Shown here: positions 30,459 through 47,371 of the stretch, in pieces
How positions within the stretch are numbered: position 1 is the first letter of the stretch
Layout of the letters: every line of letters starts with the position of its first letter
Notes under the pieces: generated by a model
Database searches by the model: none
Seen by the model: the letters and a program-made list of their open reading frames with translations, nothing else
Told to the model about the DNA's origin: nothing
Program-made: the position numbers and the translations under genes
NCBI GenBank assembly: GCA_028822935.1
Contig: JAPKCM010000015.1
Location: 1-64,000, forward strand
Source of the DNA: Akkermansiaceae bacterium
GTDB lineage: Bacteria > Verrucomicrobiota > Verrucomicrobiia > Verrucomicrobiales > Akkermansiaceae
Length of the DNA: 64,000 nt
Reading direction: 5' to 3'

Positions 30459-30479
30459 GCTCCTAAAACTCACTTGCTC

Positions 30480-31223
30480 ATGGCAAACATCTTTCCTCGT
30501 TGGGCTAATCTCCTTCCGTTAAAAATAGCGGTGTGTTTGGGGGCCGTCGGTGCCGGTTTGGTAGCGGGGTTCACCTATTATGGCACACCCAAGGCCCAGC
30601 GCGTCGGTTACCAACCAACGCAACCAATTCCTTACGATCACAATTTACATGTGAATCAACTAGGGATGGATTGCCGCTACTGCCATAGCTTTACTGAGCA
30701 TTCTAGTCATGCCAATGTTCCGACCGCGAACACTTGCTGGAACTGCCACCAGCACGTTCAAAAGGGCTCGCCCAAGCTTGCCGCTCTTCGTGATGCGATG
30801 GCTGTCGATGAAAACCATTTGCCGAAGAAAGATGTCGATGGAAATCCAGTAGAAGGGAAACCCATTCAGTGGGTTCGTATTCATAAGTCTCCCGACTACG
30901 TTTACTTTAATCACTCCGCTCACTTGAATCGCGGAATTTCCTGTCAGAGCTGCCATGGCGACGTGCACAAGATGGAAAAGGTCTACCAGGCCAAGTCCCA
31001 CTCGATGGGCTGGTGTCTTGAATGTCACCGGGCTCCTGAGAAGCATGTTCGCCCGCTCGAAGAAGTCTTTAATCTCGATTATGATGCCGAGAAGTATCTC
31101 AAGAAAAACGACGTTCGTGATGCAAAAGACAAGCGTATCACGGATCCTGAGGACTTTGGTAAGTTCCTCGTTGCCCACTGGGGCATCCGTCCAAAAGAGT
31201 CCTGCTCAACCTGTCACCGTTAA
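30480..31223 (+). CDS. actA: Alternative Complex III subunit ActA, pentahaem cytochrome c
   Basis: The 247-residue protein has an N-terminal membrane anchor (IAVCLGAVGAGLVAGFTYY) and five CxxCH haem c sites (CRYCH, CWNCH, CQSCH, CLECH and CSTCH), the number known for ActA of Alternative Complex III. Several extra His residues (HNLHVNQLG, YFNHSAHLNRG) are candidate distal ligands. It sits on the periplasmic side and passes electrons from the complex to a downstream acceptor. I use the ATG at 30480; an upstream in-frame TTG at 30474 is unlikely. It is the first gene of a 15-gene operon, just after two operator-like palindromes. Confidence 0.93.
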   Translation: MANIFPRWANLLPLKIAVCLGAVGAGLVAGFTYYGTPKAQRVGYQPTQPIPYDHNLHVNQLGMDCRYCHSFTEHSSHANVPTANTCWNCHQHVQKGSPKLAALRDAMAVDENHLPKKDVDGNPVEGKPIQWVRIHKSPDYVYFNHSAHLNRGISCQSCHGDVHKMEKVYQAKSHSMGWCLECHRAPEKHVRPLEEVFNLDYDAEKYLKKNDVRDAKDKRITDPEDFGKFLVAHWGIRPKESCSTCHR

Positions 31224-31241: not shown

Positions 31242-34200
31242 ATGAAGCGTGTCTTGAACCACCCACAGCCCCCGAAAGAGGGTGATGCCGTGACCACTTG
31301 GCGTAGTGTCGGCGAAAAGGAAGGCTCCCAGTCTTTCCGTAACGATCTCGATCGTGAGTTTCCAAATGGCGATACCCTTAACGAAGAAGAGCAGGAACTC
31401 TCTCGTCGGAGTTTCACTAAGCTCATGGGGGCATCGTCCGCTCTTGCTGGCTTGACGCTCGCTTCTTGTCGTCGCCCGGAGAGCTACATTGTCCCTTACA
31501 AGACGGCCCCTGAATGGGTCATCCCTGGTAAGCCACTTTTCTATGCTTCCACCATGCCGCGCGTGGGTGGAGCTGTTCCTCTTCTTGTGACGACTGTTGA
31601 AGGTCGTCCGCGGAAGCTTGAGCCGGCAACTGATCATCCGGATGCTTCCGGCACCGATGCGCTTGTTCAGGCTTCTATCCTAGATCTCTACTCACCGTCC
31701 CGCTCTCAGGATATCCTGAAGGATGGCAAGGTGAGTGATCAGGCCGCTCTTCTTGAGGGTCTTAAGTCGCTCGATCTTTCCAAGACGGCGCTTGTTTTTG
31801 GTTCCGATGATTCTCCTACCCGTAATCGCCTCGCTAAAGAGTTAGCAGGGAAGGGGGCCACATTGGTTTCCTACGAAGCACTTACTGGAGAAGGTCTTAG
31901 TGCTGGAGTTTCGACTGTCGTCGACTTCTCAAAGGCTTCTCGCATTCTTTCTCTCGACGCCGATTTCCTCGGTGCTGATCCAATCGGCAACAGTCGCGAA
32001 TTCTCGAAGGGCCGCATGGGTGGTGATTCGGAATACAATGCTGAGATTGTCGCTGATAAGATGAGCCGTCTCTACCAAGTGGAAACTCAGTTCAGCATCA
32101 CCGGTGGCATGGCTGATCACCGACTCCGCGTCGCTCCTAGTCGCGTGGCAATGGTTGCAGCAGAGATCGCTTCTGCGCTTGGAGCTTCGGTTCCTGCCAG
32201 CGGACTTGATGATGACGATAAAGCGGCTCTTTTCCCAGGTGGTTCTGCTGCTGAATTTGACCAGTGGGTTTCTGAGTGTGCGAAAGATCTCAAGGAAGCC
32301 GCTTCAAAGACGCTTGTTATTGTCGGTTCACGACAACCCAAAGCGGTTCACCAGATCGCAGTTGCGATCAATGCAGTTCTTAAGTCTCAAGCTGTTCGCA
32401 CCGTTTCTACTGATCTTGGTCAGTATGGCACGATGGCTGACCTTGGTGCTAAGGTTGCTTCTGGCGCGGTTGAAAATATCGTTTTTCTAACTCCGTCAGA
32501 TCCTGTTTACGACTTCGATGGTTTCGAGGCTCTTGCTGAGAAGGCAAAGGCGATCGTTCATCTCGGGATTCGCACGAATTTCACAGCATGGGCCGCTAAT
32601 TGGCATGTCCCAGCGCGCCACTTTCTCGAAAGCTGGGGCGATGCACGTTCTGCTTCCGGCGTTCTTTCGCTCATTCAGCCGATGATCTTCATGCCTTACG
32701 AGGCTGTATCAGAGCTGGAGCTACTTGTTGTCCTCAATGGCGGCGATTTTGCTCAAGGCGATTTCTCTCCTGCAATGGGGGAGGTGAAGAAGACCTTCGC
32801 TGCTCTTTCTGGTAAAGCGGGTGATGTCGCTTGGCGCGAAGGCCTCAAAAATGGCTTCGCCGCTGATACTGCTTACGCTGATGTTGCTGCTCCTGCAGGT
32901 CCAATCGAGGTTCCTAAATCTACCGCTCCGGGCACCGACAACATTGAAGTTGTCTTTTCAACCGATGCTTCCGTCCTCGACGGTCGTTTCATCGATAACG
33001 CGTGGCTTCAAGAAGCTCCCGACCCCGTCACTAAGTTGACTTGGGACAATGCCGCTCAAGTATCTCCACTGACAGCCAAAGCACTTGGGATTTATGACCA
33101 AGTGATCGCTTTAGAGCCAAAGGGTAAATTTGCTTTCAGTGATCCTTTCAAGCGTGCTGCAGAAGCTCACATCGGTGAGGGCGAGCACGCAAAAGCACCA
33201 TTTATTACCGTTTCTATTGGAGATCGTGAAATCACGGTCCCGGTTTTGATTGCCTTCGGTCACGCCGACTTTGCCATCACTATTCCTCTCGGATACGGTC
33301 AGGCTTCTGATGACGGGCGAAAGAGTGCGATCGCTCTCGACGCTGATCAGCCAGTTGTCGGTCACGTCGGACTCAATAGTGGATTCAATGCCTATCCACT
33401 TCGCTCAAGTGACACCCCTTACTTTGCCACTGGTGCGAAGATTGGCCTCACCGGGAATTCTTACAAAGTCGCTCTCACTCAGGAGCACAACTCGATGTAT
33501 GGCCGCGCGCTTGCTCGGGAAGTCTCCACGAATAGCCTTGAAGGAAAGGGCGACTTCAAAGAGCAGGTCAAAGAAGTGAAAAAGCAGGGGCTGGATGCCC
33601 ACGCTCCGGTAAACATCAGTCTTTACGATCCCAAAGGCGGAATTTGGTCGAAAGATGACGCCAAGAAAAAGTCACATATCTCCGATGACGTCCACCAGTG
33701 GGGGATGGCGATCGATCTGAACACTTGCACCGGTTGTAATGCCTGTCTTGTGGCGTGTCAGGCCGAGAACAACATCCCGATTGTCGGTAAAGATCAAGTC
33801 GCCATGGGGCGCGAGATGCACTGGATCCGCATGGACCGGTATTTCTCTGCAATGGAGACAGAAGTGCATGGTGGACATTCGAGCGATACACCAACCCCTG
33901 ATTGGGTTCAGCAGAATCCAGAAATGGTCCCTCAACCTGTCGCTTGTGTGCAGTGCGAAATGGCTCCTTGCGAGACAGTTTGCCCGGTGAATGCTACCGT
34001 TCACACCGAGGAAGGCCTCAACTCGATGGCTTATAACCGTTGTATCGGAACACGCTACTGCGCGAACAACTGCCCTTACAAGGCGCGTCGTTTCAATTTC
34101 TTCGATTACAATAAGCGCAACCCGCTCATCAAAGGAAACCTCTACAAAGGGCCTTTAGGTAAGAAGAAAGTGGGCGAAGCACCGCACCTTCAGCACAATC

Positions 34201-34676
34201 CAAATGTCACCGTTCGGATGCGCGGAGTCATGGAGAAATGCACTTACTGTGTCCAACGCCTCGAAGGAGCCAAGATCAAGCAGAAGCAGCAGCAGAAGCA
34301 AAAGACGCTCGCTGCAGGACTTCCATCCACCGCCGTCGGTGTCGATCGCGCTGTCGATCTCAGGGTTCCCACCAACAGTGTCAAAGTGGCCTGTCAAGAA
34401 GCCTGTCCAACCGCCGCAATTTCCTTCGGAAACCTCCTCGATCGCGAATCGAAGATTGTTAAAGCGAAAGGCAATCAACTCGACTCCATCGCTCGCATGT
34501 TCGATAGCGAAGAGGAGTGGAACAATTTCAAGGTTGAGGGAAGTGGTCGAAACTACGATCTCCTCAACTACGTCAATACCCGTCCTCGCACGAGCTACCT
34601 TGCTCGTGTGAAGAACCCGAATCCAAAAATGCCGGATTCAGCGTTCCTCGGACAAGCCACAATCAACACACACTAA
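31242..34676 (+). CDS. actB: Alternative Complex III subunit ActB, molybdopterin-like plus iron-sulfur fusion
   Basis: The 1144-residue protein starts with a twin-arginine signal (LSRRSFTKLMGASSALAGLT, about residues 53-72). A long molybdopterin-oxidoreductase-like domain follows (B1 part, to about residue 790); in ActB this has no Mo cofactor. The last ~350 residues are a ferredoxin-like domain (B2 part) with four Cys groups: CTGCNACLVACQ near 828, CVQCEMAPCETVCPV, CIGTRYCANNCPYKARRFNF and CTYCVQRL with CQEACPTAAI. They should bind three 4Fe-4S clusters and one 3Fe-4S cluster. It forms the periplasmic electron-transfer arm of quinol:cytochrome c oxidoreductase, between actA (18 nt) and actC (21 nt). 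Confidence 0.93.
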   Translation: MKRVLNHPQPPKEGDAVTTWRSVGEKEGSQSFRNDLDREFPNGDTLNEEEQELSRRSFTKLMGASSALAGLTLASCRRPESYIVPYKTAPEWVIPGKPLFYASTMPRVGGAVPLLVTTVEGRPRKLEPATDHPDASGTDALVQASILDLYSPSRSQDILKDGKVSDQAALLEGLKSLDLSKTALVFGSDDSPTRNRLAKELAGKGATLVSYEALTGEGLSAGVSTVVDFSKASRILSLDADFLGADPIGNSREFSKGRMGGDSEYNAEIVADKMSRLYQVETQFSITGGMADHRLRVAPSRVAMVAAEIASALGASVPASGLDDDDKAALFPGGSAAEFDQWVSECAKDLKEAASKTLVIVGSRQPKAVHQIAVAINAVLKSQAVRTVSTDLGQYGTMADLGAKVASGAVENIVFLTPSDPVYDFDGFEALAEKAKAIVHLGIRTNFTAWAANWHVPARHFLESWGDARSASGVLSLIQPMIFMPYEAVSELELLVVLNGGDFAQGDFSPAMGEVKKTFAALSGKAGDVAWREGLKNGFAADTAYADVAAPAGPIEVPKSTAPGTDNIEVVFSTDASVLDGRFIDNAWLQEAPDPVTKLTWDNAAQVSPLTAKALGIYDQVIALEPKGKFAFSDPFKRAAEAHIGEGEHAKAPFITVSIGDREITVPVLIAFGHADFAITIPLGYGQASDDGRKSAIALDADQPVVGHVGLNSGFNAYPLRSSDTPYFATGAKIGLTGNSYKVALTQEHNSMYGRALAREVSTNSLEGKGDFKEQVKEVKKQGLDAHAPVNISLYDPKGGIWSKDDAKKKSHISDDVHQWGMAIDLNTCTGCNACLVACQAENNIPIVGKDQVAMGREMHWIRMDRYFSAMETEVHGGHSSDTPTPDWVQQNPEMVPQPVACVQCEMAPCETVCPVNATVHTEEGLNSMAYNRCIGTRYCANNCPYKARRFNFFDYNKRNPLIKGNLYKGPLGKKKVGEAPHLQHNPNVTVRMRGVMEKCTYCVQRLEGAKIKQKQQQKQKTLAAGLPSTAVGVDRAVDLRVPTNSVKVACQEACPTAAISFGNLLDRESKIVKAKGNQLDSIARMFDSEEEWNNFKVEGSGRNYDLLNYVNTRPRTSYLARVKNPNPKMPDSAFLGQATINTH

Positions 34677-34697: not shown

Positions 34698-36223
<1,526 letters not shown>

Positions 36224-36227
<4 letters not shown>

Positions 36228-36781
36228 GCACTCGAGTTTCCAGAGTCTACGGCTACTTAGCCGAGTTCAATAATGCTTCCCAGCTTTACAAGGCTGCGGA
36301 GAAGGTCCGCGACGCCGGGTTTAAGAAGTGGGATTGTTTCTCACCTTATCCGATCCATGGCTTGGACGATGCGATGGGCATCAAGCGCTCTATCCTACCC
36401 TACTTCGTTTTTTTAGGAGGACTTACCGGATTTTGCACCGCCTTCATCTTGGCCTACTCAACGCAAGTGGGACTCTATCCCACGATTGTCCACGGTAAGC
36501 CGGCGAACATTTTTACGACCGCCGCTTTTTTCCCGGTGATGTTTGAGCTGACGATTCTGTTCTCAGGCTTCACGACCCTCTTCGGATTGCTTGGTCTGAT
36601 GGGTTTGCCCCGTTGGAACCATCCGCTCTTTGCGAGCAAGCAGTTTTCGAGAGCGACTGACGACAAGTTTTTCATCGCGATCGAAGCGCGGGACGCCAAG
36701 TTTTCCGCTGAGGAAACGAAGGCACTTCTTGCTGAAATTGGTGGCGCAAACATCGAACTTGTGGAGGACGATTCCAAGTAG
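36224..36781 (+). CDS. actD: Alternative Complex III subunit ActD (DUF3341)
   Basis: The 185-residue protein has the DUF3341 pattern: an N-terminal cytoplasmic part ([40 protein letters not shown]) and then two membrane helices ([20 protein letters not shown] and [20 protein letters not shown]) joined by a short loop. A small C-terminal domain ([20 protein letters not shown]) follows. ActD is a structural subunit of Alternative Complex III with no known cofactor. It overlaps actC by 4 nt and is followed by actE after 3 nt. Confidence 0.92.
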
Positions 36782-36784
36782 ACC

Positions 36785-37405
36785 ATGAAATATTTCTTCC
36801 TTTCTTTTATTGCGATTTGCCTTCTCGTCGTGGGTGTCTTTGGATTCCGCGGAGATAAGTTTTCTCAGCCACCGATCCGCATTTTCCCGGACATGGATGA
36901 GCAGGATAAGATCAGGGCCCAGAAGCCAAGTGGCTTCTTCTCTGATGGCATGGGATCCCGTAAGCCGATTCCTGGAACCGTCCCAAATTCTGGTGACAAT
37001 GGCATTCTTCCTGTTGAGTTCTCTCAAGGCCGTGATGGTTATTACTATAGCGGTGCTCACGAAGGGACCTACGGAAACGGAATGCCCGAAGAACTGAAGC
37101 TCAGCGACGAATCAGCTTCAACCGCGCTGCTAGGGCGGGGGAAGGACATGTTTGGCGTTCATTGCGCGATTTGCCATGGGGATGCAGGCGACGGTAAAGG
37201 AGTCGTCGGCCATTATTTCAGCAAGGCAAACGTCGTCGTTGCCAGCCTCCACAATTTCCCTCAGTCATCACATCCTGATGGCTACATCTACCACGTAATT
37301 GCCAACGGCAAAGGAAACATGGGGGGCTACAAGCATAACCTCCCTGTGCGTGATCGTTGGGCTATCGTTGCTTACGTTCGAACCCTCCAGGCCGCGGCCA
37401 AATAA
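36785..37405 (+). CDS. actE: Alternative Complex III subunit ActE, monohaem cytochrome c
   Basis: The 206-residue protein begins with a membrane anchor or signal (MKYFFLSFIAICLLVVGVFG). In place of the lipobox Cys found in some ActE lipoproteins it has only the internal Cys12. The N-terminal half has the ActE feature MDEQDKIRAQKPSGFFSDGM. The single haem site is GRGKDMFGVHCAICHGDAGD (CAICH), with a distal Met likely in GKGNMGGYKHNLPVRDRWAI. It is the periplasmic cytochrome subunit of Alternative Complex III. Gaps to neighbours are 3 nt and 18 nt. Confidence 0.92.
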   Translation: MKYFFLSFIAICLLVVGVFGFRGDKFSQPPIRIFPDMDEQDKIRAQKPSGFFSDGMGSRKPIPGTVPNSGDNGILPVEFSQGRDGYYYSGAHEGTYGNGMPEELKLSDESASTALLGRGKDMFGVHCAICHGDAGDGKGVVGHYFSKANVVVASLHNFPQSSHPDGYIYHVIANGKGNMGGYKHNLPVRDRWAIVAYVRTLQAAAK

Positions 37406-37423: not shown

Positions 37424-38743
37424 ATGTCTCATTTCGTCACATCGAAAGACATCCCGACCAATGGGGAGCACCTTGACAAGGGGAAGCTCGCATTGCCCAA
37501 GATGGTTACGGGCGGCATCGCTGCAATCGGTCTCATTGGCAGTATCGCATTCTTCCTCTTTGGAAGTGGATCTGCGCATGGTTCCTACGCGTTCTCGTGG
37601 TTGTTTGCGCTCTTCTTCGTCCTGACAATTACTTTTGGGGGATGTTTCTTCACGCTCCTACACAACCTTTCTAATTCAGGGTGGGGGACTTCAGTCCGTC
37701 GCTTGATGGAGAATCTAGGCTTCGTATTTCCGTTTATGATTCTCTTCGCGATCCCACTTCTTTTCCATGATGTTCAGCAGTATCTTTGGGAATGGATGAC
37801 GATGTTCCGTGAGACGGTTGGTGATAGCAAGAATGCATCTGAGGCGCTGATGCATAGCGCTGATCCTCATAACCATCTCCTCGCCAAAAAGACCTTCTAT
37901 CTTAGTCCCGGTTTTTGGCATTTCCGCTTCTTCTTCTACTTTATCGGCCTTGGTGGAGTGATCTGGCTCCTTCGTAAGCTCTCGATCGCTCAGGATACTG
38001 AGAAAGATCCGGGTGTTGAAAACCTCTTCAAAGCACGTTCTTATTCTTCTTGGGGCATGATTATCTTCGGAGTTTCCATGACCTTCCTAGCTATCGATTG
38101 GGTGATGGCGCTCGATTTCTCATGGTTTTCCACGATGTTCGGAGTTTATGTCTTCGCAGGTTCGGCGCTGAGTTCGATGGCTGTCTTAATCCTGACTTCG
38201 GTGATTCTACAGAGAATGGGCTACCTCAAAAAGGTCGTTACCCCTGAACACCATCACATCATGGGCAAGCTCATGTTCGCCTTCACCGTCTTCTGGGCTT
38301 ACGTTTCCTTCTCGCAGTTTTTCCTCTACTGGTATGCCAATATTCCTGAGGAGACCCGCTACTTCATTCTCCGCAATACTGGAAATTGGAACGTGCTGAG
38401 TCTCTGTCTTGTCTTCCTTCACTTTGGATTGCCCTTCTTGTTGCTTCTTCGTTCCGACGTGAAAAAGAAGCCAGGCTTTCTCATCTTTATCAGCTGTTAC
38501 ATCTTGTTTGTGCACCTTGCGGATGTTTACCACATGATCATTCCTGAAAGGGGACCTTCGGTGGGTCTTGTTGTTGATCATCAAGCTCAACTATGGCTGA
38601 ACGGTTCTTTCTTCGGTGACATCATAGCCCTCGTGATCGTTGTCTCAGGTTTCCTTTTCTTCTATCTGCGTAACCTTGGTTCCGCTGCTCTTTATCCACA
38701 CCGCGATCCTCGTATCCTCGAGTCCGCAAATCTTACGAACTAA
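37424..38743 (+). CDS. actF: Alternative Complex III subunit ActF, NrfD-like membrane protein
   Basis: The 439-residue membrane protein has about ten predicted helices and is the shorter partner of ActC. Typical parts are FTLLHNLSNSGWGTSVRRLM, NLGFVFPFMILFAIPLLFHD, KTFYLSPGFWHFRFFFYFIG, GVSMTFLAIDWVMALDFSWF, FWAYVSFSQFFLYWYANIPE and LADVYHMIIPERGPSVGL. In known Alternative Complex III structures ActF resembles ActC but lacks a bound quinol; a role in proton translocation has been proposed. It ends 3 nt before a small unknown gene of the same operon. Confidence 0.92.
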   Translation: MSHFVTSKDIPTNGEHLDKGKLALPKMVTGGIAAIGLIGSIAFFLFGSGSAHGSYAFSWLFALFFVLTITFGGCFFTLLHNLSNSGWGTSVRRLMENLGFVFPFMILFAIPLLFHDVQQYLWEWMTMFRETVGDSKNASEALMHSADPHNHLLAKKTFYLSPGFWHFRFFFYFIGLGGVIWLLRKLSIAQDTEKDPGVENLFKARSYSSWGMIIFGVSMTFLAIDWVMALDFSWFSTMFGVYVFAGSALSSMAVLILTSVILQRMGYLKKVVTPEHHHIMGKLMFAFTVFWAYVSFSQFFLYWYANIPEETRYFILRNTGNWNVLSLCLVFLHFGLPFLLLLRSDVKKKPGFLIFISCYILFVHLADVYHMIIPERGPSVGLVVDHQAQLWLNGSFFGDIIALVIVVSGFLFFYLRNLGSAALYPHRDPRILESANLTN

Positions 38744-38746
38744 GTC

Positions 38747-39046
38747 ATGGATCACACCCGCGATAATCCGCTCAAACGCTTCACTGCATTTTGGATCGCC
38801 CTCCTTCTTGTCGGGTGCTTTGGCATCGCCTGCATTATTCTACGTCCATTGACGCACGGTCAGGTAGATACCGCCTATGAAATGGTGAGTGATACCCGGC
38901 TTGCGACAAAATCTGAGATCAAGAAAAGTCAGGCTGCAGCTCTCGATTTCGAAAAGCTTGAGAAAACTTTAAAGTCCGCTGCGCAAACTCTCAACCAAGC
39001 TCCTTCAAAAGGGGCAATGCCACTTCTGGGCGCTCCAACCAAATAA
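38747..39046 (+). CDS. Small single-pass membrane protein of the respiratory operon, unknown
   Basis: The 99-residue product has one membrane helix (FTAFWIALLLVGCFGIACII, about residues 13-32) followed by a charged helical tail (TKSEIKKSQAAALDFEKLEK) and ends PLLGAPTK. It contains no haem motif or lipobox. Gaps of 3 nt to actF and 6 nt to the CcoN-like gene place it firmly in the operon, exactly at the junction between the ACIII block and the cbb3-like block. A linker or assembly role is an inference. I do not recognise a family. Confidence 0.75.
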   Translation: MDHTRDNPLKRFTAFWIALLLVGCFGIACIILRPLTHGQVDTAYEMVSDTRLATKSEIKKSQAAALDFEKLEKTLKSAAQTLNQAPSKGAMPLLGAPTK

Positions 39047-39052
39047 TTTTCC

Positions 39053-40537
39053 ATGTCTGAGACTCCTTCCTCTGCCGATGCCAATGACATCGCCTTGCGG
39101 TCTTCGATTGACCGTTCGCTGCGTCACCCGGTGATGTTTTTCTTCACCAGTGGAGCCTTGTGGCTCGCGGTTTCTGCTGTTCTCGGTTTTATCGCCTCTG
39201 CGAAGAAGCACTTGCCTGAGTTCCTTGATGGCTGTTCTCTTTTCGATGCGGGTAAGATCGATGCTGCCCACATCAATGCTCTGATCTACGGATGGGGCTT
39301 CCAGGCCGCGTTCGGAATGATTATTTGGCTGATGGCCCGCCTTTCTCGCAAGGAATGCACTTCCTCAGGAATCGTCCTCGTAGCAGGACATCTCTGGAAC
39401 TTTGCGGTGTTATTCGGGGTTGTTGGAATCATGTTGGGAATGGGCACGGGCGTTCCTTGGATGGAATTCCCTAAGGCGGTTTGGCCTGTTCTGCTCTTGT
39501 GCTACATGCTGATTACAATCTGGTCGCTGATTCAGTTTCAGGTTCGCGACGCAGGACACGTTTATGTCAGCCAATGGTATCTCTTAGCGGCAATGCTCTG
39601 GTTCCCATGGATCTACATGACGGCGAACCTCTTTGTCTTTGTCTTCGATGGTAATCCACTCATGGCTGCCGGAATCGCCTCTTGGTTCAAAGGCACTCTC
39701 TTCCTTCTCTTCTTCCTACCCGTAGCGGTCGCAAGTGCTTACTTCCTTGCGCCAAAGGTGACCGGTCGTCCGGTTTACAGTTATAACATTGCTCTCTTCG
39801 GGTTCTGGACTCTTGCAGTGGTGGGACCATGGGCAGGAATGCAAAAGCTCACCGGAGCGCCGATTCCTCAGTTTCTCCCTTATGCCGGAGCGGCGGCAAT
39901 GGTGCTCATCTTGGTTCCTGCGATTGCAGTGGCGATCAACATTCTAAAGACAGTGAGTGGTCATGGGGAAACGGTTACGGCAAGCCCCGCCTTACGATTT
40001 ACCGCTGCAGGGGTGGTGGGTCTCCTGACCTATGGAATCCTATCAGCAACAACTCACGCTTTTGGCTTCAGCTTGGTCCAGTTTAGTTACACTGATTATG
40101 GATTCGATATTTTGGGTCTCTACGGAGTCTTTTCGCTATGTGCCTTCGGTGCGATCTACTTCATCGTTCCCCGGATCACTCGTAGGGAGTGGCTCTCACG
40201 TCGCTTCATCAGTTGGCACTTTTACCTCTCTCTCTACGGCGTGATTACGGTGGCGATCAGCGCCATCGTCGGTGGCATTTCCCAGGGAGAGGGCATCGAA
40301 GCTTGGAATCAGTCCTTCCTAGCCGGAGCCGGACGGGCCCAAAGCTACGGCTGGGGCGTCACGATCGCCTGGGGATTCCTTCTTCTCTCAAGTCTCTTCT
40401 TCAGTTTGCATCTCCTCCTGATGTGGGCTCGATTGGGCCGACGCTCTTCACACCCGACTCTTCTCACGGGCCCCCACGCGGATAGTCCGCATGGTCCCGA
40501 GGGAGAAGTTGACAACTACGGTTCTGCTACTGCTTAA
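39053..40537 (+). CDS. CcoN-like haem-copper oxidase subunit I homologue lacking the active-site ligands
   Basis: Length (494 residues) and several segments follow cbb3 oxidase subunit CcoN: AAHINALIYGWGFQAAFGMI (His73, equivalent to the low-spin haem b ligand), LAPKVTGRPVYSYNIALFGF and CAFGAIYFIVPRITRREWL. But the catalytic residues are gone. WYGHN (CuB His) reads WFKGT at 211-215; WAGPHHLHYT (two CuB His) reads WAGMQKLTGA at 260-269; and GHVHxG (haem b3 His and second haem b His) reads GFDILG at 350-355. It therefore cannot reduce oxygen in the usual way. A structural or electron-relay subunit is inferred. CcoO-like and cytochrome c genes follow at 3-nt gaps. Confidence 0.88.
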   Translation: MSETPSSADANDIALRSSIDRSLRHPVMFFFTSGALWLAVSAVLGFIASAKKHLPEFLDGCSLFDAGKIDAAHINALIYGWGFQAAFGMIIWLMARLSRKECTSSGIVLVAGHLWNFAVLFGVVGIMLGMGTGVPWMEFPKAVWPVLLLCYMLITIWSLIQFQVRDAGHVYVSQWYLLAAMLWFPWIYMTANLFVFVFDGNPLMAAGIASWFKGTLFLLFFLPVAVASAYFLAPKVTGRPVYSYNIALFGFWTLAVVGPWAGMQKLTGAPIPQFLPYAGAAAMVLILVPAIAVAINILKTVSGHGETVTASPALRFTAAGVVGLLTYGILSATTHAFGFSLVQFSYTDYGFDILGLYGVFSLCAFGAIYFIVPRITRREWLSRRFISWHFYLSLYGVITVAISAIVGGISQGEGIEAWNQSFLAGAGRAQSYGWGVTIAWGFLLLSSLFFSLHLLLMWARLGRRSSHPTLLTGPHADSPHGPEGEVDNYGSATA

Positions 40538-40540
40538 ACC

Positions 40541-41281
40541 ATGAAATTTAAAGCATTCATATTCGGGCTTCTTGTTAGCTTCGGCCTGCCTTGGCTCTTG
40601 GTAATTGTTGTTCCCTTCTCGGCGATGAGAAGTTTAGAGCCTGCCAAATATGCAGGGATGGAAATCGATGGCGGTGATGGCGTTTATATTCCAAAACGTG
40701 ATGGCCGGATTAAGGAAGGTTCTGAGGTTTATGGTCAAGAAGGCTGCTACTACTGTCACACGCAGCTGATTCGTCCTACCTATGCGGGAAGCGATGTGTG
40801 GCGCGCCGACTGGGCTGGTCTTAAGAAGTCAGCGGATAACCCTGATACCCGTCGCGAGACTCTCGCTACTGATTACGAGGGTGAGAAAATTGCCCATATC
40901 GGCGTGATGCGTGTGGGACACGATCTTTCCAATTTGGGTCGCCGTTTGGAGGCCAATCTAAAAGGGACGCAATTGTCGCCGGAAACATGGACGTTTTTAC
41001 ATCTCTACAATCCACGTGGAATCACCCCTTATCGAAAAGATTCACAGGATCGAGAGGAGCGTTCTGCTTGTCCTTCCAAGCCTAGTCTTTTTAAAGAGGT
41101 TTCAAAAAATATTGCAGGTTTTAATGCTCTTCCGGTTGCCTCACCTGAAGGCAAGGCTATTATCCCAAGTGATCGAGCAAGGGCTCTAGTGAGCTATCTC
41201 GTTTCTCTGAAAAAAGATACCTTGGAACAGCCCGTTCCACAGAATCTCAATTACAACCCTATCCAGCCAGCCGCTCAATAA
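40541..41281 (+). CDS. ccoO: CcoO-like membrane-anchored monohaem cytochrome c
   Basis: The 246-residue protein has an N-terminal membrane anchor (FKAFIFGLLVSFGLPWLLVI) and the CcoO-type haem site GSEVYGQEGCYYCHTQLIRP, with CYYCH. HDLSNLGRRLEANLKGT and THLYNPRG-like text (TFLHLYNPRGITPYRKDSQD) also follow CcoO. In cbb3 oxidases CcoO passes electrons into CcoN. Here its partner CcoN-like subunit lacks the reaction centre, so this cytochrome probably passes electrons elsewhere, perhaps between Alternative Complex III and the aa3 oxidase. That role is inferred. It lies 3 nt from both neighbours. Confidence 0.88.
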   Translation: MKFKAFIFGLLVSFGLPWLLVIVVPFSAMRSLEPAKYAGMEIDGGDGVYIPKRDGRIKEGSEVYGQEGCYYCHTQLIRPTYAGSDVWRADWAGLKKSADNPDTRRETLATDYEGEKIAHIGVMRVGHDLSNLGRRLEANLKGTQLSPETWTFLHLYNPRGITPYRKDSQDREERSACPSKPSLFKEVSKNIAGFNALPVASPEGKAIIPSDRARALVSYLVSLKKDTLEQPVPQNLNYNPIQPAAQ

Positions 41282-41284
41282 GTT

Positions 41285-42052
41285 ATGGCCAATCCCTCTT
41301 CCAATCGTCCTGATTTAGACGAAAACATCAACGTTCCCGAAGTGCATGCTGCACTGGGCGCCGACTCCGTTGCTGCCGGACGTGAAAAGTCGATTCGTGA
41401 GAATGGCATGGAGCCTGTGGGGCTCATCATGTTGATTCCATGTGCCTTCATTCTTTTATTGGGTGGATCTGTTCTTGGAAAAGGGGGAGGTCTGTTTGGT
41501 TACAACGAGCTTGTTAAAAATGGCTACATGCGTGCTCCCGCACCAGGCGGTGAGGAAAAAATTCTTCCTCCTGGTCCTGCAGGAGAGATTTTCGCCAAAA
41601 ATGGGGCAAAGCTCTATAGCAAGTGCATTGGGTGCCATGGCCCCAGTGGTGCTGGTGGAAATGGCTTCCCTCCTTTGGCCGGTTCAGAATGGGTCACGGG
41701 TAATACCGATCAGCTTTCCCAAATCATCATTCACGGTCTGAAAGGTCCAATTAGCGTCGCGGGCAATACCTACAATAACAACATGCCGGCGATGGGCGAC
41801 GGATTTGGTCCCAAGGAACTCGCATTTGTCATGACCTACATTCGGTCCGCGTGGGGGAATGACGCATCTCTAGTGACTCCTGAGATGGGACAAGCCGCTC
41901 TTGAAGTTGCTAAAAATCGACCTTCCGGGCAGGTCGACGTGAATGAGTTGAAAGCAAATCATGACAAGATGCTTCCTGGTGAGGCTCTTTCGCCCGATAC
42001 CCTTATTGATCCAGAAACTCTGGAGCCTGTTGAGCAGCCCGCTGCCGAATAA
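41285..42052 (+). CDS. Membrane-anchored monohaem cytochrome c (CcoP-like position)
   Basis: The 255-residue protein has a cytoplasmic N-terminal stretch of about 45 residues, one membrane helix (PVGLIMLIPCAFILLLGGSV) and a class I cytochrome c domain. The haem site is GAKLYSKCIGCHGPSGAGGN (CIGCH), with the axial Met probably in NTYNNNMPAMGDGF. It takes the position of CcoP, but CcoP usually has two haems; only one CxxCH is present here. An acidic, proline-rich tail (PDTLIDPETLEPVEQPAAE) follows. It may be the soluble-domain electron donor to the aa3 oxidase encoded next, since subunit II here has no fused cytochrome. Confidence 0.87.
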   Translation: MANPSSNRPDLDENINVPEVHAALGADSVAAGREKSIRENGMEPVGLIMLIPCAFILLLGGSVLGKGGGLFGYNELVKNGYMRAPAPGGEEKILPPGPAGEIFAKNGAKLYSKCIGCHGPSGAGGNGFPPLAGSEWVTGNTDQLSQIIIHGLKGPISVAGNTYNNNMPAMGDGFGPKELAFVMTYIRSAWGNDASLVTPEMGQAALEVAKNRPSGQVDVNELKANHDKMLPGEALSPDTLIDPETLEPVEQPAAE

Positions 42053-42079: not shown

Positions 42080-43963
42080 ATGAGCGCTGAAGCACACGAC
42101 CATCACCACTTTGATCCTCCGTTCTGGAAAAAGTATATTTTTTCTACCGATCACAAGACGATCGGAATTCAGTATGGACTTACCGCCGGGCTCTTTTTGC
42201 TCTTCGGATTCTTTCTGATGATCGTCATGCGCTGGAGCATTGCCTACCCACACGAGCCTCTTCCCGAGTATCTTAGTTGGATGTTCTCGGATGGATGGAA
42301 AGCTCGCTGGTTGGAGGACGGAAAAGTCACGGGGGAGACCTATAATATGTTCGGTGCGATGCACGGGACGATCATGGTTTTCCTCGGCGTGGTGCCTCTT
42401 GGCTTTGCTGCCTTTGGTAACTACGTGACGCCCCTCCAGATCGGTGCTCCTGATATGGCTTTTCCGAAACTGAACATGGCAAGTTACTGGGTGTATCTTA
42501 TCGGTGGTCTCGTCATGTGCATGAGCTTTTTCATGGAGTCTGGTGCCGCGAAATCTGGTTGGACAAACTACTCCCCACTAGCAGGCTATGCCGACTCTCA
42601 GATCGTGAACCAGTTTCTCGCTGGGCAGACTCAGTGGTTGATTGGTTTAGTTTGTCTCATTACTTCCTCGCTTTTAGGTGCGGTGAACTTCATCACCACG
42701 ATTATCAACCTTCGTGCGAAGGGGCTTACTTGGATGCGTCTTCCGTTCTTTGTCTGGGCGATGCTTGTCACAGGTTTCCTTCTCCTCCTTGCGTTCCCAC
42801 CTCTTGAAGCGGCGGGTATCATGCAGCTCATGGATCGGGTTACGGGTTCTTCCTTCTTCTTGCCAACGGGTCTCTATTCGAAAGCTGATGGAGTAATGGA
42901 CATTTCCGGTTCCGGTAGTCCTCTCCTTTTCCAGCACCTCTTCTGGTTCTTGGGACACCCTGAGGTTTATGTTCTTCTCCTTCCTGCAATCGCCTGTGTC
43001 GCGGAAATCATTCCTGTCCACACGCGCCGTCCTCTCTGGGGATACAAGCCCATGGTTTGGGGCGTGATTTCGCTGGGATTCCTTTCCTTCATCGTTTGGG
43101 CCCACCACATGTATCTCACAGGAATGGGGCCGGTCATCTCGACCTTCTTCCAGACCACAACGGTGCTGATTTCGGTGCCCTCGGTGATTCTCCTGACGGC
43201 GATGTTGATGTCGCTCTGGGGCGGATCGATCCGCTTCACGATGCCCATGTTGTGGGCGGCTGCCTTCCTTCCGATGTTCGGAATTGGTGGTCTCACAGGC
43301 CTCCCTCTGGCGTTCAACCTTGCTGACCTCCACCTTCACGACACTTACTATGTCATCGGTCATTTCCACTACGTCGTGGCACCTGGAATTCTCTTTGGAC
43401 TCTTTGCGGGAGTTTATCACTGGTATCCTAAGATGACGGGTCGTTTCATGGACAACTTCCTGGGGCACCTCCACTTCTGGCCATCGCTCATCTGCATGAA
43501 TTTCTTGTTCTTCCCAATGATGACTCAAGGAATGGCTGGCTTCCACCGTCGTTGGTATAACGGAGGAGACGCTTATATTGAAAAACTCGGCGCAAATGAC
43601 GGGGTTAATGTCTTTGGTCTGACCGTCCTCGAAAAAATCTCTCTCAACGAGGTGATGACCGTTTCAGCGATCGCACTTGCTATCTTCCAGTTGCCCTTCC
43701 TCTTCAATATGTTCTTCAGTTACTTCTGGGGTAAGAAGATCAAGAACGACAATCCTTGGGATGCAACGACTCTTGAGTGGGCTACTCCAACGCCTCCGGG
43801 GCACGGAAATTTCACCTTCGAACCTTCGATCTATCGCGGACCCTACGAATATAGCCGTCCGGATCACGATGCTGACTTCTTCCCGCAGTGGGAGAAGCCA
43901 AAACGTGACACTAATCCATCAGAGCCTGATGAGGCTCCTGCCAAAGAAGAGACCCAAGCTTAA
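42080..43963 (+). CDS. ctaD: Cytochrome c oxidase subunit I, aa3 type
   Basis: The 627-residue, polytopic catalytic subunit starts with a His-rich cytoplasmic tail (AEAHDHHHFDPPFWKKYIFS then TDHKTIGIQY). The active site is intact: low-spin haem ligand in FGAMHGTIMVFLGVVPLGF, FWFLGHPEVYVLLLPA (CuB His and cross-linked Tyr), VWAHHMYLTGM (two CuB His), and LADLHLHDTYYVIGHFHYVV (haem a3 and haem a His). It reduces O2 to water and pumps protons. It follows the cbb3-like block by 27 nt, and subunit III follows by 20 nt. Subunit II is encoded four genes later, an unusual order. Confidence 0.95.
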   Translation: MSAEAHDHHHFDPPFWKKYIFSTDHKTIGIQYGLTAGLFLLFGFFLMIVMRWSIAYPHEPLPEYLSWMFSDGWKARWLEDGKVTGETYNMFGAMHGTIMVFLGVVPLGFAAFGNYVTPLQIGAPDMAFPKLNMASYWVYLIGGLVMCMSFFMESGAAKSGWTNYSPLAGYADSQIVNQFLAGQTQWLIGLVCLITSSLLGAVNFITTIINLRAKGLTWMRLPFFVWAMLVTGFLLLLAFPPLEAAGIMQLMDRVTGSSFFLPTGLYSKADGVMDISGSGSPLLFQHLFWFLGHPEVYVLLLPAIACVAEIIPVHTRRPLWGYKPMVWGVISLGFLSFIVWAHHMYLTGMGPVISTFFQTTTVLISVPSVILLTAMLMSLWGGSIRFTMPMLWAAAFLPMFGIGGLTGLPLAFNLADLHLHDTYYVIGHFHYVVAPGILFGLFAGVYHWYPKMTGRFMDNFLGHLHFWPSLICMNFLFFPMMTQGMAGFHRRWYNGGDAYIEKLGANDGVNVFGLTVLEKISLNEVMTVSAIALAIFQLPFLFNMFFSYFWGKKIKNDNPWDATTLEWATPTPPGHGNFTFEPSIYRGPYEYSRPDHDADFFPQWEKPKRDTNPSEPDEAPAKEETQA

Positions 43964-43983: not shown

Positions 43984-45672
43984 ATGGAAATCCCATTTGT
44001 CGTCAACGCCCGTAAGGACACCGGTCTCAACAACTCTAAGGTTGGTATTTGGCTTTTCCTTGCGTCAGAGGTTACTCTCTTCGGAGGTCTCTTTTCCGGT
44101 TATCTCTTTCTCCGTATCTATGCCGATTACCCTTGGCCTGAGCGGACGCTTCCGATCCTTCCCGGACTTCTGAACACCTTTATCCTGATTGGATCGTCGG
44201 TGACCGTGGTCTTTGCCTGGGCCGCATTGAAAATGCGTCAGTGGCGGAAGTTCCAAGTCTACATGTGGATTACCTTAATCTGCGCCCTGCTGTTCATGGT
44301 GCTCAAGGGATTCGAATATGATGCTAAGTTTAATCACCAGGCGGTCCGAATCCTCGATGATGGTCCAGTAAACGATTTCGCGATCGTTGAAGGCCACACA
44401 CACTACGCGAAGCTTGATCATGGTGAGATCCACCATGCTGATAAAAAAGATGAGGGTGCTTTCAAGCAAAACCGGATTGCGATCAAAGCGAGCGAATTGA
44501 CCTTTACGCTCACTCGTCCGGTTCACGATTCTTATGTCGCTGATCTCATTGAACAGGCTGGCGGTGAAGGTAACTTCAAACTCACTGCGAGTTACTCAGT
44601 AAAAGACGCTAAGACGGGTGAAGAAGTGGTAATTCTTGAGGAAGGTGCTCCGCTCAACACTGATAATCTTGACCTCGCTGAGGAAGGATTCATTGATGGA
44701 AAATCGCACGATGCAAATATTCGCACGGCCTTTTTGAAGGGTAACTGGGATACCATTCGTGAGTCTGGAAATCAAGATGCTGCTTGGAAGGTTGTCATGA
44801 CCGACGAGTGGAAAGAGATTCAGAAGGAATCATCGGAAAAGATGAAGGGGCACCTGATTGGGGCTGCCGGTTCGGTGACCTACAAGATTGATCCTCCTCT
44901 CTTATTCCACTTTGACCCTGACGCGGTCGTGAATCATTCAGCCGAGCAACTGAGGCTTCGTGACGATACCACAATAAGGGGTGTCTTTGATGTCGAAGGA
45001 AGTTCACTGCCGATGGCTGTTGATGGAATCGACTTCCGCTTCACCGCTCAACGGGCTGTCGAGGAAGGGATTGATCCTGCCGTGATGGTCGCCGGGAGTT
45101 GGATTCTCGAAGATCCTGATGTGAAGAAAGTTTGGGATGCACACCAGGAGTGGCTGCGGGCTCACATCGAGCGCCTTGATCAAAAGAGTAGGGATAAGGG
45201 TAAAGAAGGCGAAGACGCCTACGTGCCTACCGAGAGTGAGAGATACCGGGTGAACTGGGATCAGATGGTTTCCTATCAGCGTGCTGGATACACAGACATT
45301 TACGAAAAGGCCAAGAACGGCGAACTCAAGAAGCCCAATTGGATCGAGGGATTCACAGGACCGAATCACAACAACGAGGAGTTTGTGAAAGCCTTCCCTG
45401 AGATTGTTGTGCCTCGTGACAAGATTGGATTTGAGTCCTCCTTTACACCTAAGTGGAACACTTATTATGCGATCTATTTCACGATTACCGGACTCCACGG
45501 TCTTCACGTTATTGGCGGAATGATCGTTCTTGGATATTATCTCTTCTTCGGACGCAAAATGTATGAAAGCAACCCTGTGTGGCTTGCGAACCGAGTCGAA
45601 ATTGGTGGCCTTTTCTGGCACTTCGTTGACCTTGTGTGGATCTTCCTCTTCCCGATCCTCTACTTGATGTAA
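43984..45672 (+). CDS. ctaE: Cytochrome c oxidase subunit III with a very large insertion
   Basis: Both ends are normal subunit III. Residues 1-112 have KVGIWLFLASEVTLFGGLFS and FMVLKGFEYDAKF (with conserved K-G-x-E-Y). Residues 493-562 have TYYAIYFTITGLHGLHVIGG and IGGLFWHFVDLVWIFLFPIL. Between them lies an insertion of about 375 residues, where relatives have only a short loop, making the protein 562 instead of about 200 residues. It starts with a His-rich stretch (EGHTHYAKLDHGEIHHADKK, about 137-156) and continues hydrophilic and charged. Such a domain would be a large soluble attachment to the oxidase. Its fold and side of the membrane are not known to me. Confidence 0.92.
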   Translation: MEIPFVVNARKDTGLNNSKVGIWLFLASEVTLFGGLFSGYLFLRIYADYPWPERTLPILPGLLNTFILIGSSVTVVFAWAALKMRQWRKFQVYMWITLICALLFMVLKGFEYDAKFNHQAVRILDDGPVNDFAIVEGHTHYAKLDHGEIHHADKKDEGAFKQNRIAIKASELTFTLTRPVHDSYVADLIEQAGGEGNFKLTASYSVKDAKTGEEVVILEEGAPLNTDNLDLAEEGFIDGKSHDANIRTAFLKGNWDTIRESGNQDAAWKVVMTDEWKEIQKESSEKMKGHLIGAAGSVTYKIDPPLLFHFDPDAVVNHSAEQLRLRDDTTIRGVFDVEGSSLPMAVDGIDFRFTAQRAVEEGIDPAVMVAGSWILEDPDVKKVWDAHQEWLRAHIERLDQKSRDKGKEGEDAYVPTESERYRVNWDQMVSYQRAGYTDIYEKAKNGELKKPNWIEGFTGPNHNNEEFVKAFPEIVVPRDKIGFESSFTPKWNTYYAIYFTITGLHGLHVIGGMIVLGYYLFFGRKMYESNPVWLANRVEIGGLFWHFVDLVWIFLFPILYLM

Positions 45673-45711: not shown

Positions 45712-46113
45712 ATGGCTGATACTCCAGAAGCAATTCAGAAAACGAAAAAGCTCTACGCTTTTATTGGGCTCATTCTCTTCTTTTTCACTGGTATTACCGT
45801 GGCTGTGGCCACGATTGAATCCTTGGATTTCGGCGGGCATGGCTTTGGTGCCGCTGATGCCATCATCGGTCTCGTGATAGCCGCTTTTAAGGCATCTCTG
45901 GTGATGATTATCTTCATGCACCTCAACCATGAGAAGCCTATGGTTTACTTCTTATTCGCGCTAGGCCTTGTGATGGCCTTCTTCTGTATGTGGCTCATTG
46001 GCTGGTCAAAGAGCGATCCGATCCAGTATGGAAATAGTACGAAGGCAGATGGATTTTACAATCCTGACAAGCCGGCCACCGACGTCCACTCGAAAACAGA
46101 ACCAAAGTACTAG
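45712..46113 (+). CDS. Cytochrome c oxidase subunit IV-like protein
   Basis: The 133-residue protein has three membrane helices (LYAFIGLILFFFTGITVAVA, AIIGLVIAAFKASLVMIIFM and MVYFLFALGLVMAFFCMWLI) and the hallmark KASLVMIIFMHLNHEKP of bacterial COX4/CtaF subunits. It is a small accessory subunit of the aa3 oxidase. The C-terminal ~35 residues are hydrophilic and outward facing. It lies 39 nt after subunit III and 2 nt before a small membrane protein gene. Confidence 0.88.
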   Translation: MADTPEAIQKTKKLYAFIGLILFFFTGITVAVATIESLDFGGHGFGAADAIIGLVIAAFKASLVMIIFMHLNHEKPMVYFLFALGLVMAFFCMWLIGWSKSDPIQYGNSTKADGFYNPDKPATDVHSKTEPKY

Positions 46114-46564: not shown

Positions 46565-47371
46565 ATGTTCATTCCTCTTAACTGGTCAAAATGGCTCGGA
46601 ATTCCTGAAAATTTCTCCGAGCACGGTGGCAATGTCGATCACCTGATTGATATCGTTCACTGGTTCATGGCTGCACTCTTTATCGGTTGGACGCTTTTTT
46701 TCTTCGTTTGTTGCTGGAAATTTAGGGCGTCGAAGAATCCCAAAGCGAGCTACCATGGGGTCACAAGTCACGTCTCTTCTCACTTGGAAATCGGGGTTGT
46801 GGTTATCGAAGCCGTTCTCCTTCTCGGTTTTGCTTTCCCGCTTTGGTGGGAGCGGACCGATCAGTTTGACGAGGTCCAAAAGACCGATCCGGTGAGGGTA
46901 AGGGTCATTGGCTATCAGTTCGGCTTTCAGTATCACTATCCTGGCTCAGATGGTAAGTTTGGTCGCATTGACCGTCACTTAGTTAATGGGCTTGGTGATC
47001 CTTGTATCGATCCTCATGACCCCAACGGATGGGATGATTTTGTTGCACCAGTGCTTAAACTGCCTGTTGATCGGAATGCCATTCTTCAGATCACTTCGAC
47101 TGATGTGATTCATAATTACTCCATCATTCCGATGCGAATCCAGCAGGATGCGATGCCGGGAAGAGATATTCCGATGTGGTTTAAGCCGATCAAGAAGCTG
47201 GAAACCTACGTTGTTTGTGGCCAGCTCTGTGGAGAAGGCCATGCAAACATGAGAGGGCTCATGGAGGTGATCAGTAAGAAGGCCTACTCATCTTGGGCCA
47301 AAGAGCAGAGCAAAGCTGCCTTTGATAAGACAAAGGCTGCCCAAAATACGGATGCGGTCGCTCAGAACTAA
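46565..47371 (+). CDS. ctaC: Cytochrome c oxidase subunit II
   Basis: The 268-residue protein has two membrane helices (VHWFMAALFIGWTLFFFVCC and LEIGVVVIEAVLLLGFAFPL) and a periplasmic cupredoxin domain with a complete CuA site: His in DVIHNYSIIPMRIQQDAMPG and CGQLCGEGHANMRGLM (C-x3-C-x3-H-x2-M). It accepts electrons from cytochrome c and passes them to haem a in subunit I. There is no fused C-terminal cytochrome c domain, so the separate cytochromes of the operon must donate electrons. It is the last gene of the operon, followed 20 nt later by a strong terminator. Confidence 0.94.
   Translation: MFIPLNWSKWLGIPENFSEHGGNVDHLIDIVHWFMAALFIGWTLFFFVCCWKFRASKNPKASYHGVTSHVSSHLEIGVVVIEAVLLLGFAFPLWWERTDQFDEVQKTDPVRVRVIGYQFGFQYHYPGSDGKFGRIDRHLVNGLGDPCIDPHDPNGWDDFVAPVLKLPVDRNAILQITSTDVIHNYSIIPMRIQQDAMPGRDIPMWFKPIKKLETYVVCGQLCGEGHANMRGLMEVISKKAYSSWAKEQSKAAFDKTKAAQNTDAVAQN

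Follow-up and report, generated by a model that had tools for sequence, protein, structure and literature searches.

A CcoN-like protein without the oxygen-reducing centre in ACIII operons of Verrucomicrobiota

The gene cluster and its CcoN-like protein

The window analyzed here, a stretch of 64,000 nucleotides from an Akkermansiaceae bacterium (contig JAPKCM010000015.1), carries on its forward strand a series of genes for ACIII, a CcoN-like protein with two cytochrome c partners, and an A-type oxidase. The series starts with ActA (30474 to 31223), which has five CxxCH motifs and no sixth haem motif, and ActB (31242 to 34676), an iron-sulphur/molybdopterin-like subunit; both were named from gene order and from what we take to be the anatomy of ACIII. 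They are followed by ActC of the NrfD family (34698 to 36227; PF03916, 81 bits), ActD (36224 to 36781; named from gene order), ActE, a monohaem cytochrome c by profile search and CxxCH count (36785 to 37405), and ActF (37424 to 38743), which was also named from gene order and matched no Pfam family at an E value of 0.001 and no NCBIfam family at 0.01. The adjoining five-haem ActA, NrfD-type ActC, and monohaem ActE mark this as an ACIII operon. A small ORF of 99 aa without a haem motif (38747 to 39046) lies between ActF and the CcoN-like gene. Its family profile also matches haem-c ORFs that lie immediately before the CcoN-like gene in relatives (46 have one CxxCH and 2 have two), and it may be a cytochrome subunit whose haem domain was lost in the window's genus.

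Downstream of the CcoN-like gene (39053 to 40537) lies a CcoO/FixO-like membrane cytochrome c (40541 to 41281) with one CxxCH, in the motif CYYCHTQLIRP. The term "CcoO-like" used for it in the original prediction is fair, although the FixO score (28.1 bits) falls just under the Pfam cut-off of 29.6. The third gene (41285 to 42052) codes for a weakly CcoP-like membrane cytochrome c, which with its single CxxCH and a TIGR00782 score of 46.6 bits (cut-off, 180) is not a two-haem CcoP. The aa3-type genes comprise CoxA, the A-type subunit I (42080 to 43963); CoxC, subunit III by profile matches (43984 to 45672); a small membrane subunit called subunit IV-like by position alone (45712 to 46113); and CoxB, subunit II, with a CuA motif and no haem c motif (46565 to 47371). 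In CoxC (562 aa), the subunit III profiles match an N-terminal stretch and residues 484 to 562, with a long insert between them. In the genome (4.59 Mb, 156 contigs, 96% complete), PF00115 is matched by two genes, the CcoN-like one and the adjoining CoxA.

The CcoN-like gene is an uninterrupted reading frame in the ORF list, without stop or frameshift, and its 494-aa product is, judging from alignment, profiles, and a predicted model, a probable pseudo-oxidase of the CcoN fold. It belongs to the PF00115 family (117.8 bits; cut-off, 34.8) and stays below the cut-off of the CcoN equivalog TIGR00780 (104 bits versus 583), as do the intact relatives tried, those of genomes G058 (253.5 bits) and G201 (245.1 bits). 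Its top relatives in the PDB by sequence are CcoN chains (E = 5.8e-24). An AlphaFold2 model built with 61 sequences (alignment A3) has a mean pLDDT of 86 and a pTM of 0.88. In Foldseek searches of the PDB, the top matches of this model were again CcoN (3mk7; E = 1.6e-18; TM, 0.81 to 0.86), and VIA-align comparison with CcoN 3mk7 gave a Z score of 42.2 (2.4 A over 442 residues), with lower values for NorB (37.8) and A-type oxidases (about 31). The model thus has the 12-helix subunit I fold of the PDB chains, and since CcoN is the best structural match, the model shows the complete body of a C-type oxidase subunit, which appears to have been retained.

For the alignment with CcoN and intact relatives, we take the assignment of ligands to motifs from established knowledge of the superfamily. 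In this alignment the CuB His of WYGHN is replaced by G214, the cross-linking Tyr of helix VII by G258, the CuB His pair by Q264-K265, and the haem b3 His by F351. All three motif replacements named in the original prediction (WYGHN by WFKGT, WAGPHHLH by WAGMQKLT, and GHVHxG by GFDILG) are right, no His is placed at any CuB or haem b3 position, and PF00115 membership, predicted fold, and alignment together bear out its claim of a haem-copper oxidase homologue without the O2-reducing centre. His73 in TM2, at a low-spin haem b position (codon 39269 to 39271, computed from the ORF start), is retained as had been stated; overlooked, however, was the loss of the second haem b His in TM10. This residue, the second His of GHxHxG and an established low-spin haem b ligand of haem-copper oxidases, is I353 here (F351-D352-I353 codons, 40103 to 40111, computed likewise), and the haem b pair is therefore broken too. 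His73 is the only one of the six haem-copper His ligands kept. The FeB and haem His ligands of NorB-type NO reductases, whose positions we take to coincide with those of CuB and b3, are also absent. Compared with CcoN of the cbb3 oxidase (PDB 3mk7), the window protein shares the 12-helix fold, the N-O-then-cytochrome c gene order, and a CcoO-like partner, but it is only ~20% identical, lacks the CuB, Tyr, haem b3, and second haem b ligands, and is encoded at a locus without the two-haem CcoP.

Pairwise comparison with the closest relative, at 87% identity, gave dN/dS values of 0.053 (CcoN-like gene), 0.069 (ActF), 0.087 (CcoO-like gene), 0.052 (cytochrome c gene), and 0.030 (CoxA), of which the order of magnitude alone is meaningful, as dS is near saturation (0.8 to 3.5). 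By this sequence measure, the CcoN-like gene is under strong purifying selection.

Ligand states and operon contexts among relatives

Among 58 genomes searched, the window's own included, 55 had a match to the CcoN-like protein; in two of these (G010 and G039) the best match has a low score and a long open frame and is apparently a separate CcoN-type gene, so that 53 genomes have an orthologue. In named genomes, 424 stretches encode a relative, of which the best 80 were retained, a set biased toward near kin of the window; by record title these 80 are all Verrucomicrobiota, bar one titled only "Bacterium". Haloferula, Luteolibacter, and Roseibacillus, which include cultured organisms, are among the named carriers of the ligand-less gene. 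A family profile matched 81 of 240 sampled genomes of the phylum, separate CcoN genes included. For ligand counts we used 146 members remaining after removal of identical cores (25 rows) and outgroups (15 rows). Also left out were ORFs of <330 aa (including L050), a chance match (L181), a sequence fetched by mistake (L201), and L001, L002, and L133 to L162 (second copies). Near-copies remain among the 146, and the counts are of sequences, not events.

Eighteen of the 146 are intact, with all six His and the Tyr. The other 128 are ligand-less, keeping none (n = 15), one (n = 100), or two (n = 13) of the six His; no member among the 146 has three to five, and neither the Tyr nor all three CuB His occur in any of the 128. 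The metal-site residues left in the ligand-less members are Y258 in 0, H351 in 1, H353 in 4, H264 in 5, H214 in 7, and H265 in 10, and His73 is kept in 99, being elsewhere mostly F, A, Q, or S. The replacements vary among lineages, with no common substitute. It is exceedingly improbable that the protein is still an oxidase or NO reductase working with different ligands: its fold and operon context are of the oxidase type, but every catalytic position is lost, and the lineages share no replacement.

Both low-spin His are kept in 3 of the 128 (L183, L184, and L048), which retain the haem b pair alone, the CuB, Tyr, and haem b3 ligands being gone; judged by these residues, the three could possibly act as haem b relays. 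They are what favours the more general suggestion, made in the original prediction, of a relay in which the low-spin haem alone is retained and passes electrons. Because the TM10 His is I353 in the window protein and His73 is dispensable in relatives, we regard such a relay as very unlikely overall, and on account of the lost TM10 ligand it was rejected for the window protein itself.

A further possibility is that the protein binds another cofactor: His73 could hold a haem, by itself or together with a partner other than His, or a ligand could sit at the conserved Q264-K265 pair. All 61 sequences of alignment A3 have His73, Q264 (93 of 128) and K265 (76 of 128) are the most frequent residues where the CuB pair used to be, and Q stands in place of His at position 343 in 111 of 128. 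We nevertheless consider it improbable: the second axial His is absent from all but 4 of the 128, related families have F, A, Q, or S in place of His73, and the helix boundaries of the model suggest that the remaining His conserved in A3 lie away from the site.

Outside the metal sites, residues common to all 18 intact members are widely kept in the 128 ligand-less ones, namely, D20 (126), R96 (122), Y176 (112), Y230 (109), K235 (123), R315 (118), Y369 (123), R374 (123), and H389 (121). Several of these conserved residues are polar, as might be expected of a proton- or quinol-handling subunit in which a water/ion path or quinol pocket couples ACIII turnover to transport without redox centres, in the manner of NrfD-like subunits; a quinol-binding subunit was among the roles suggested in the original prediction. 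Cofactor-free membrane subunits that meet quinone do occur in such complexes, as a passage of PMC8076601 says of NrfD-like subunits. No specific quinol or channel motif was identified in the CcoN-like protein, however, and the conserved polar residues are equally explicable as structural; this role is unlikely, in our estimate.

Where loci are long enough, intact and ligand-less members have the same gene order: Act genes, the family member, the CcoO-like gene, and the cytochrome c gene. An ActB, ActC, or ActF gene is present at 137 of 146 loci. At ligand-less loci reaching 2.2 kb downstream, CxxCH is found in the CcoO-like gene in 91 of 91 and in the cytochrome c gene in 91 of 91; at intact loci the figures are 18 of 18 and 16 of 18, the cytochrome c gene not having been found in two. 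When all 142 ligand-less loci with ACIII genes are taken, with copies kept and no demand on length, 3 loci yielded no CcoO-like gene and 3 no cytochrome c gene, and in one the cytochrome c gene lacks CxxCH. The original prediction was right to place the homologue, kept by selection, alongside haem-c partner genes in one operon.

A decaying relic or a sequencing error, to which the loss of ligands as such might point, can be given almost no credence in view of 128 different ligand-less members, a dN/dS of 0.05, a window copy without stop or frameshift, and the haem motifs kept by the partner cytochromes. Because the same loss is present in many independently assembled genomes, it is no artefact. 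Sequencing error, which had been named as a possible objection, is rejected, as are a frameshift and a pseudogene.

The two forms differ in what lies downstream: CoxA occurs within 6.5 kb at none of 18 intact loci versus 61 of the 86 ligand-less loci with room for it, a link that rests on few independent lineages. A strict rule by which lost ligands imply an adjoining aa3 was rejected, since 25 of these 86 loci have no CoxA just downstream. In two genomes, G058 (99% complete) and G201 (98% complete), the intact form is the sole PF00115 match, and together with the absence of CoxA nearby this gene content makes it likely that the intact form works as a terminal oxidase. Each genome with the ligand-less form in the PF00115 search also has another high-scoring PF00115 match; by gene content, the lost form is confined, among the genomes searched, to those with another oxidase. 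Maturation genes were uninformative as a test of oxidase function: ccoG scored above its cut-off in only 4 of 17 genomes, all of which have a separate CcoN-type gene with a high score; the two genomes with the intact form as sole oxidase gene are not among them, and ccoS had no match above cut-off in any of the 17.

Two further groups of intact proteins were noted. L163 to L168, from phylum members outside the window's class, combine a CcoO-like gene with an intact CcoN-like protein of ~460 aa, close to an ORF of 590 to 614 aa with seven CxxCH; a seven-haem cytochrome may here feed an oxidase or NO reductase. L178 and L180 are deep-branching intact C-type-like proteins (frames of 550 and 634 aa) with no ACIII genes within about 7 kb.

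History of the loss and the methanotroph "cbb3"

A quick tree of 93 proteins was made with ligand columns removed, and separate CcoN-type genes served as its root. If three states are distinguished (intact, lost, and haem b pair only), it requires four changes, and when intact is set against the rest, its starred branches force two. In a more careful tree of 50 proteins with long branches excluded, the ligand-less L192 is nested in the intact clade, with bootstrap values of 97 to 100 around it. A single clade of all lost proteins, and with it a single loss of ligands, is rejected moderately (p-AU = 0.018, for a group defined after the quick tree had been seen and with L192 on a rather long branch of 0.57). 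Counts alone do not separate loss from gain; regain of seven positions is not plausible, and as all outgroups are intact, there were at least two losses. Families f7 and f9 each have intact and lost members, which, assuming vertical descent, suggests three or more losses (in the window's order, in part of f9, and in part of f7); gene transfer could also be the source of these mixed states. Although more than two losses are likely, the gene tree does not force them, since its root could be put at different places with respect to the intact clade, the f9 group, and the order of the window. Families f8 and f15 and the proteins L175, L176, L210, and L049, whose long branches make their places unsure, were omitted from the careful tree.

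Family f8 connects these proteins with published accounts of verrucomicrobial methanotrophs. In a review (PMC8498564), these organisms, one exception aside, are assigned cbb3, aa3, and ba3 oxidases, with ACIII genes directly adjoining the cbb3 genes, and a C-type oxidase with ACIII is said, after Refojo 2010, to be known only from verrucomicrobial methanotrophs and Opitutaceae. In part of a genome paper (PMC6688271), the methanotroph "cbb3" is tied to high oxygen affinity and growth at low oxygen; the relevant part of PMC11102522 describes, for Methylacidiphilum caldifontis, a nos operon within the ACIII cluster, with aa3 and cbb3 genes adjoining; and a passage of PMC8170126 reports one verrucomicrobial methanotroph without cbb3. 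Four f8 genomes (L173, L174, L220, and L221) have 3 to 4 pMMO subunit genes each, and in each a ligand-less CcoN-like protein precedes CoxA. Act genes lie upstream in three of them; in the fourth, L173, the upstream genes are instead those of a nos operon (nos propeller and NosD proteins), which matches the arrangement published for Methylacidiphilum caldifontis. TIGR00780 found no other CcoN in these four genomes, only weak matches inside CoxA-type genes. As the ligand-less protein is their only CcoN relative, we infer that the published "cbb3 oxidase" of such methanotrophs is probably a ligand-less pseudo-oxidase. A fifth f8 genome (G064), with one pMMO gene, has no match to the family profile, which fits the cbb3-free methanotroph mentioned in the cited passage of PMC8170126.

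The ACIII-linked "C-type oxidase" of verrucomicrobial methanotrophs and Opitutaceae has the same operon place as the window protein, and the four methanotroph-like genomes have the ligand-less kind, but it is printed as a cbb3 oxidase in the passages of PMC8498564 concerned, which mention no active-site loss. Although the association of ACIII with a C-type-like oxidase is already known, we found no description of repeated loss of its centre with the body retained in the open-access literature searched.

A possible frame between ACIII and aa3

Two ACIII-oxidase supercomplexes offer a comparison. Those of Flavobacterium johnsoniae and Rhodothermus marinus resemble the window locus in combining ActABCDEF with an aa3-type oxidase of the (c)aa3 group. 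In Flavobacterium the two are joined by a sixth ActA haem, in an extra haem-c domain thought, according to part of PMC8552683, to carry electrons to the oxidase, ActE being dispensable for this transfer in the same account; in Rhodothermus the link is a haem-c domain on subunit II, to which PMC5928083, in the passage concerned, attributes the same role. Both bridging domains are absent from the window and its near kin, where a CcoNO-like module is encoded between ACIII and aa3. All 55 ActA ORFs counted (one from an outgroup locus, the other 54 from the window's near kin) have five CxxCH and no more, and all 71 CoxB have CuA but lack CxxCH (copies kept in both counts). Thus, with a five-haem ActA and a haem-c-free CoxB, the two cytochromes of the module supply all the further haem c that the window encodes between ActE and CuA.

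We think it rather probable that the role of the pseudo-oxidase is that of a frame in the membrane, supporting a haem-c bridge between ACIII and aa3. The membrane scaffold of the original prediction is hence favoured as the best reading, though we infer the physical complex, the electron route, and the function as a frame from sequence and gene order. The ancestor would have been a working C-type-like oxygen reductase encoded in the ACIII operon of Verrucomicrobiota. The ligands of haem b3, of copper, and nearly always of haem b were lost in more than one lineage, the 12-helix body being retained. The dead subunit would bind ACIII, and aa3 where this is co-encoded, and would hold the CcoO-like protein and the single-haem cytochrome c in fixed places, so that their haems link ActE/ActA to the CuA site of aa3. 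At the 25 of 86 ligand-less loci without CoxA downstream, a bridge to aa3 is not readable from gene order. ActE alone might also pass electrons to CuA, and soluble carriers could do so as well.

A bolder version of the membrane-frame reading, which we put forward only tentatively, is that a redox-inert oxidase core may be the obligate chassis of a quinol-to-oxygen megacomplex of ACIII, dead CcoN with two cytochromes c, and aa3. This would be a third ACIII-oxidase wiring, reached more than once by active-site loss, and would include the methanotroph "cbb3". A parallel exists in cytochrome bd, where CydB is a haem-less homologue of the catalytic subunit and a structural partner of its active paralogue CydA; the CcoN-like protein would be alike as a haem-less structural homologue, although the protein families are unrelated.

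A core family of respiratory enzymes, defined by its metal centre, would have a widespread branch in which this centre was dropped more than once and the place in a respiratory operon was kept. Ligand-less genes of this kind are easily miscounted as high-affinity oxidases. The relatives available for comparison range from intact through half-lost (haem b only) to fully lost, and the handover of electrons from ACIII to aa3 is made testable in a setting where both known haem-c links are missing.
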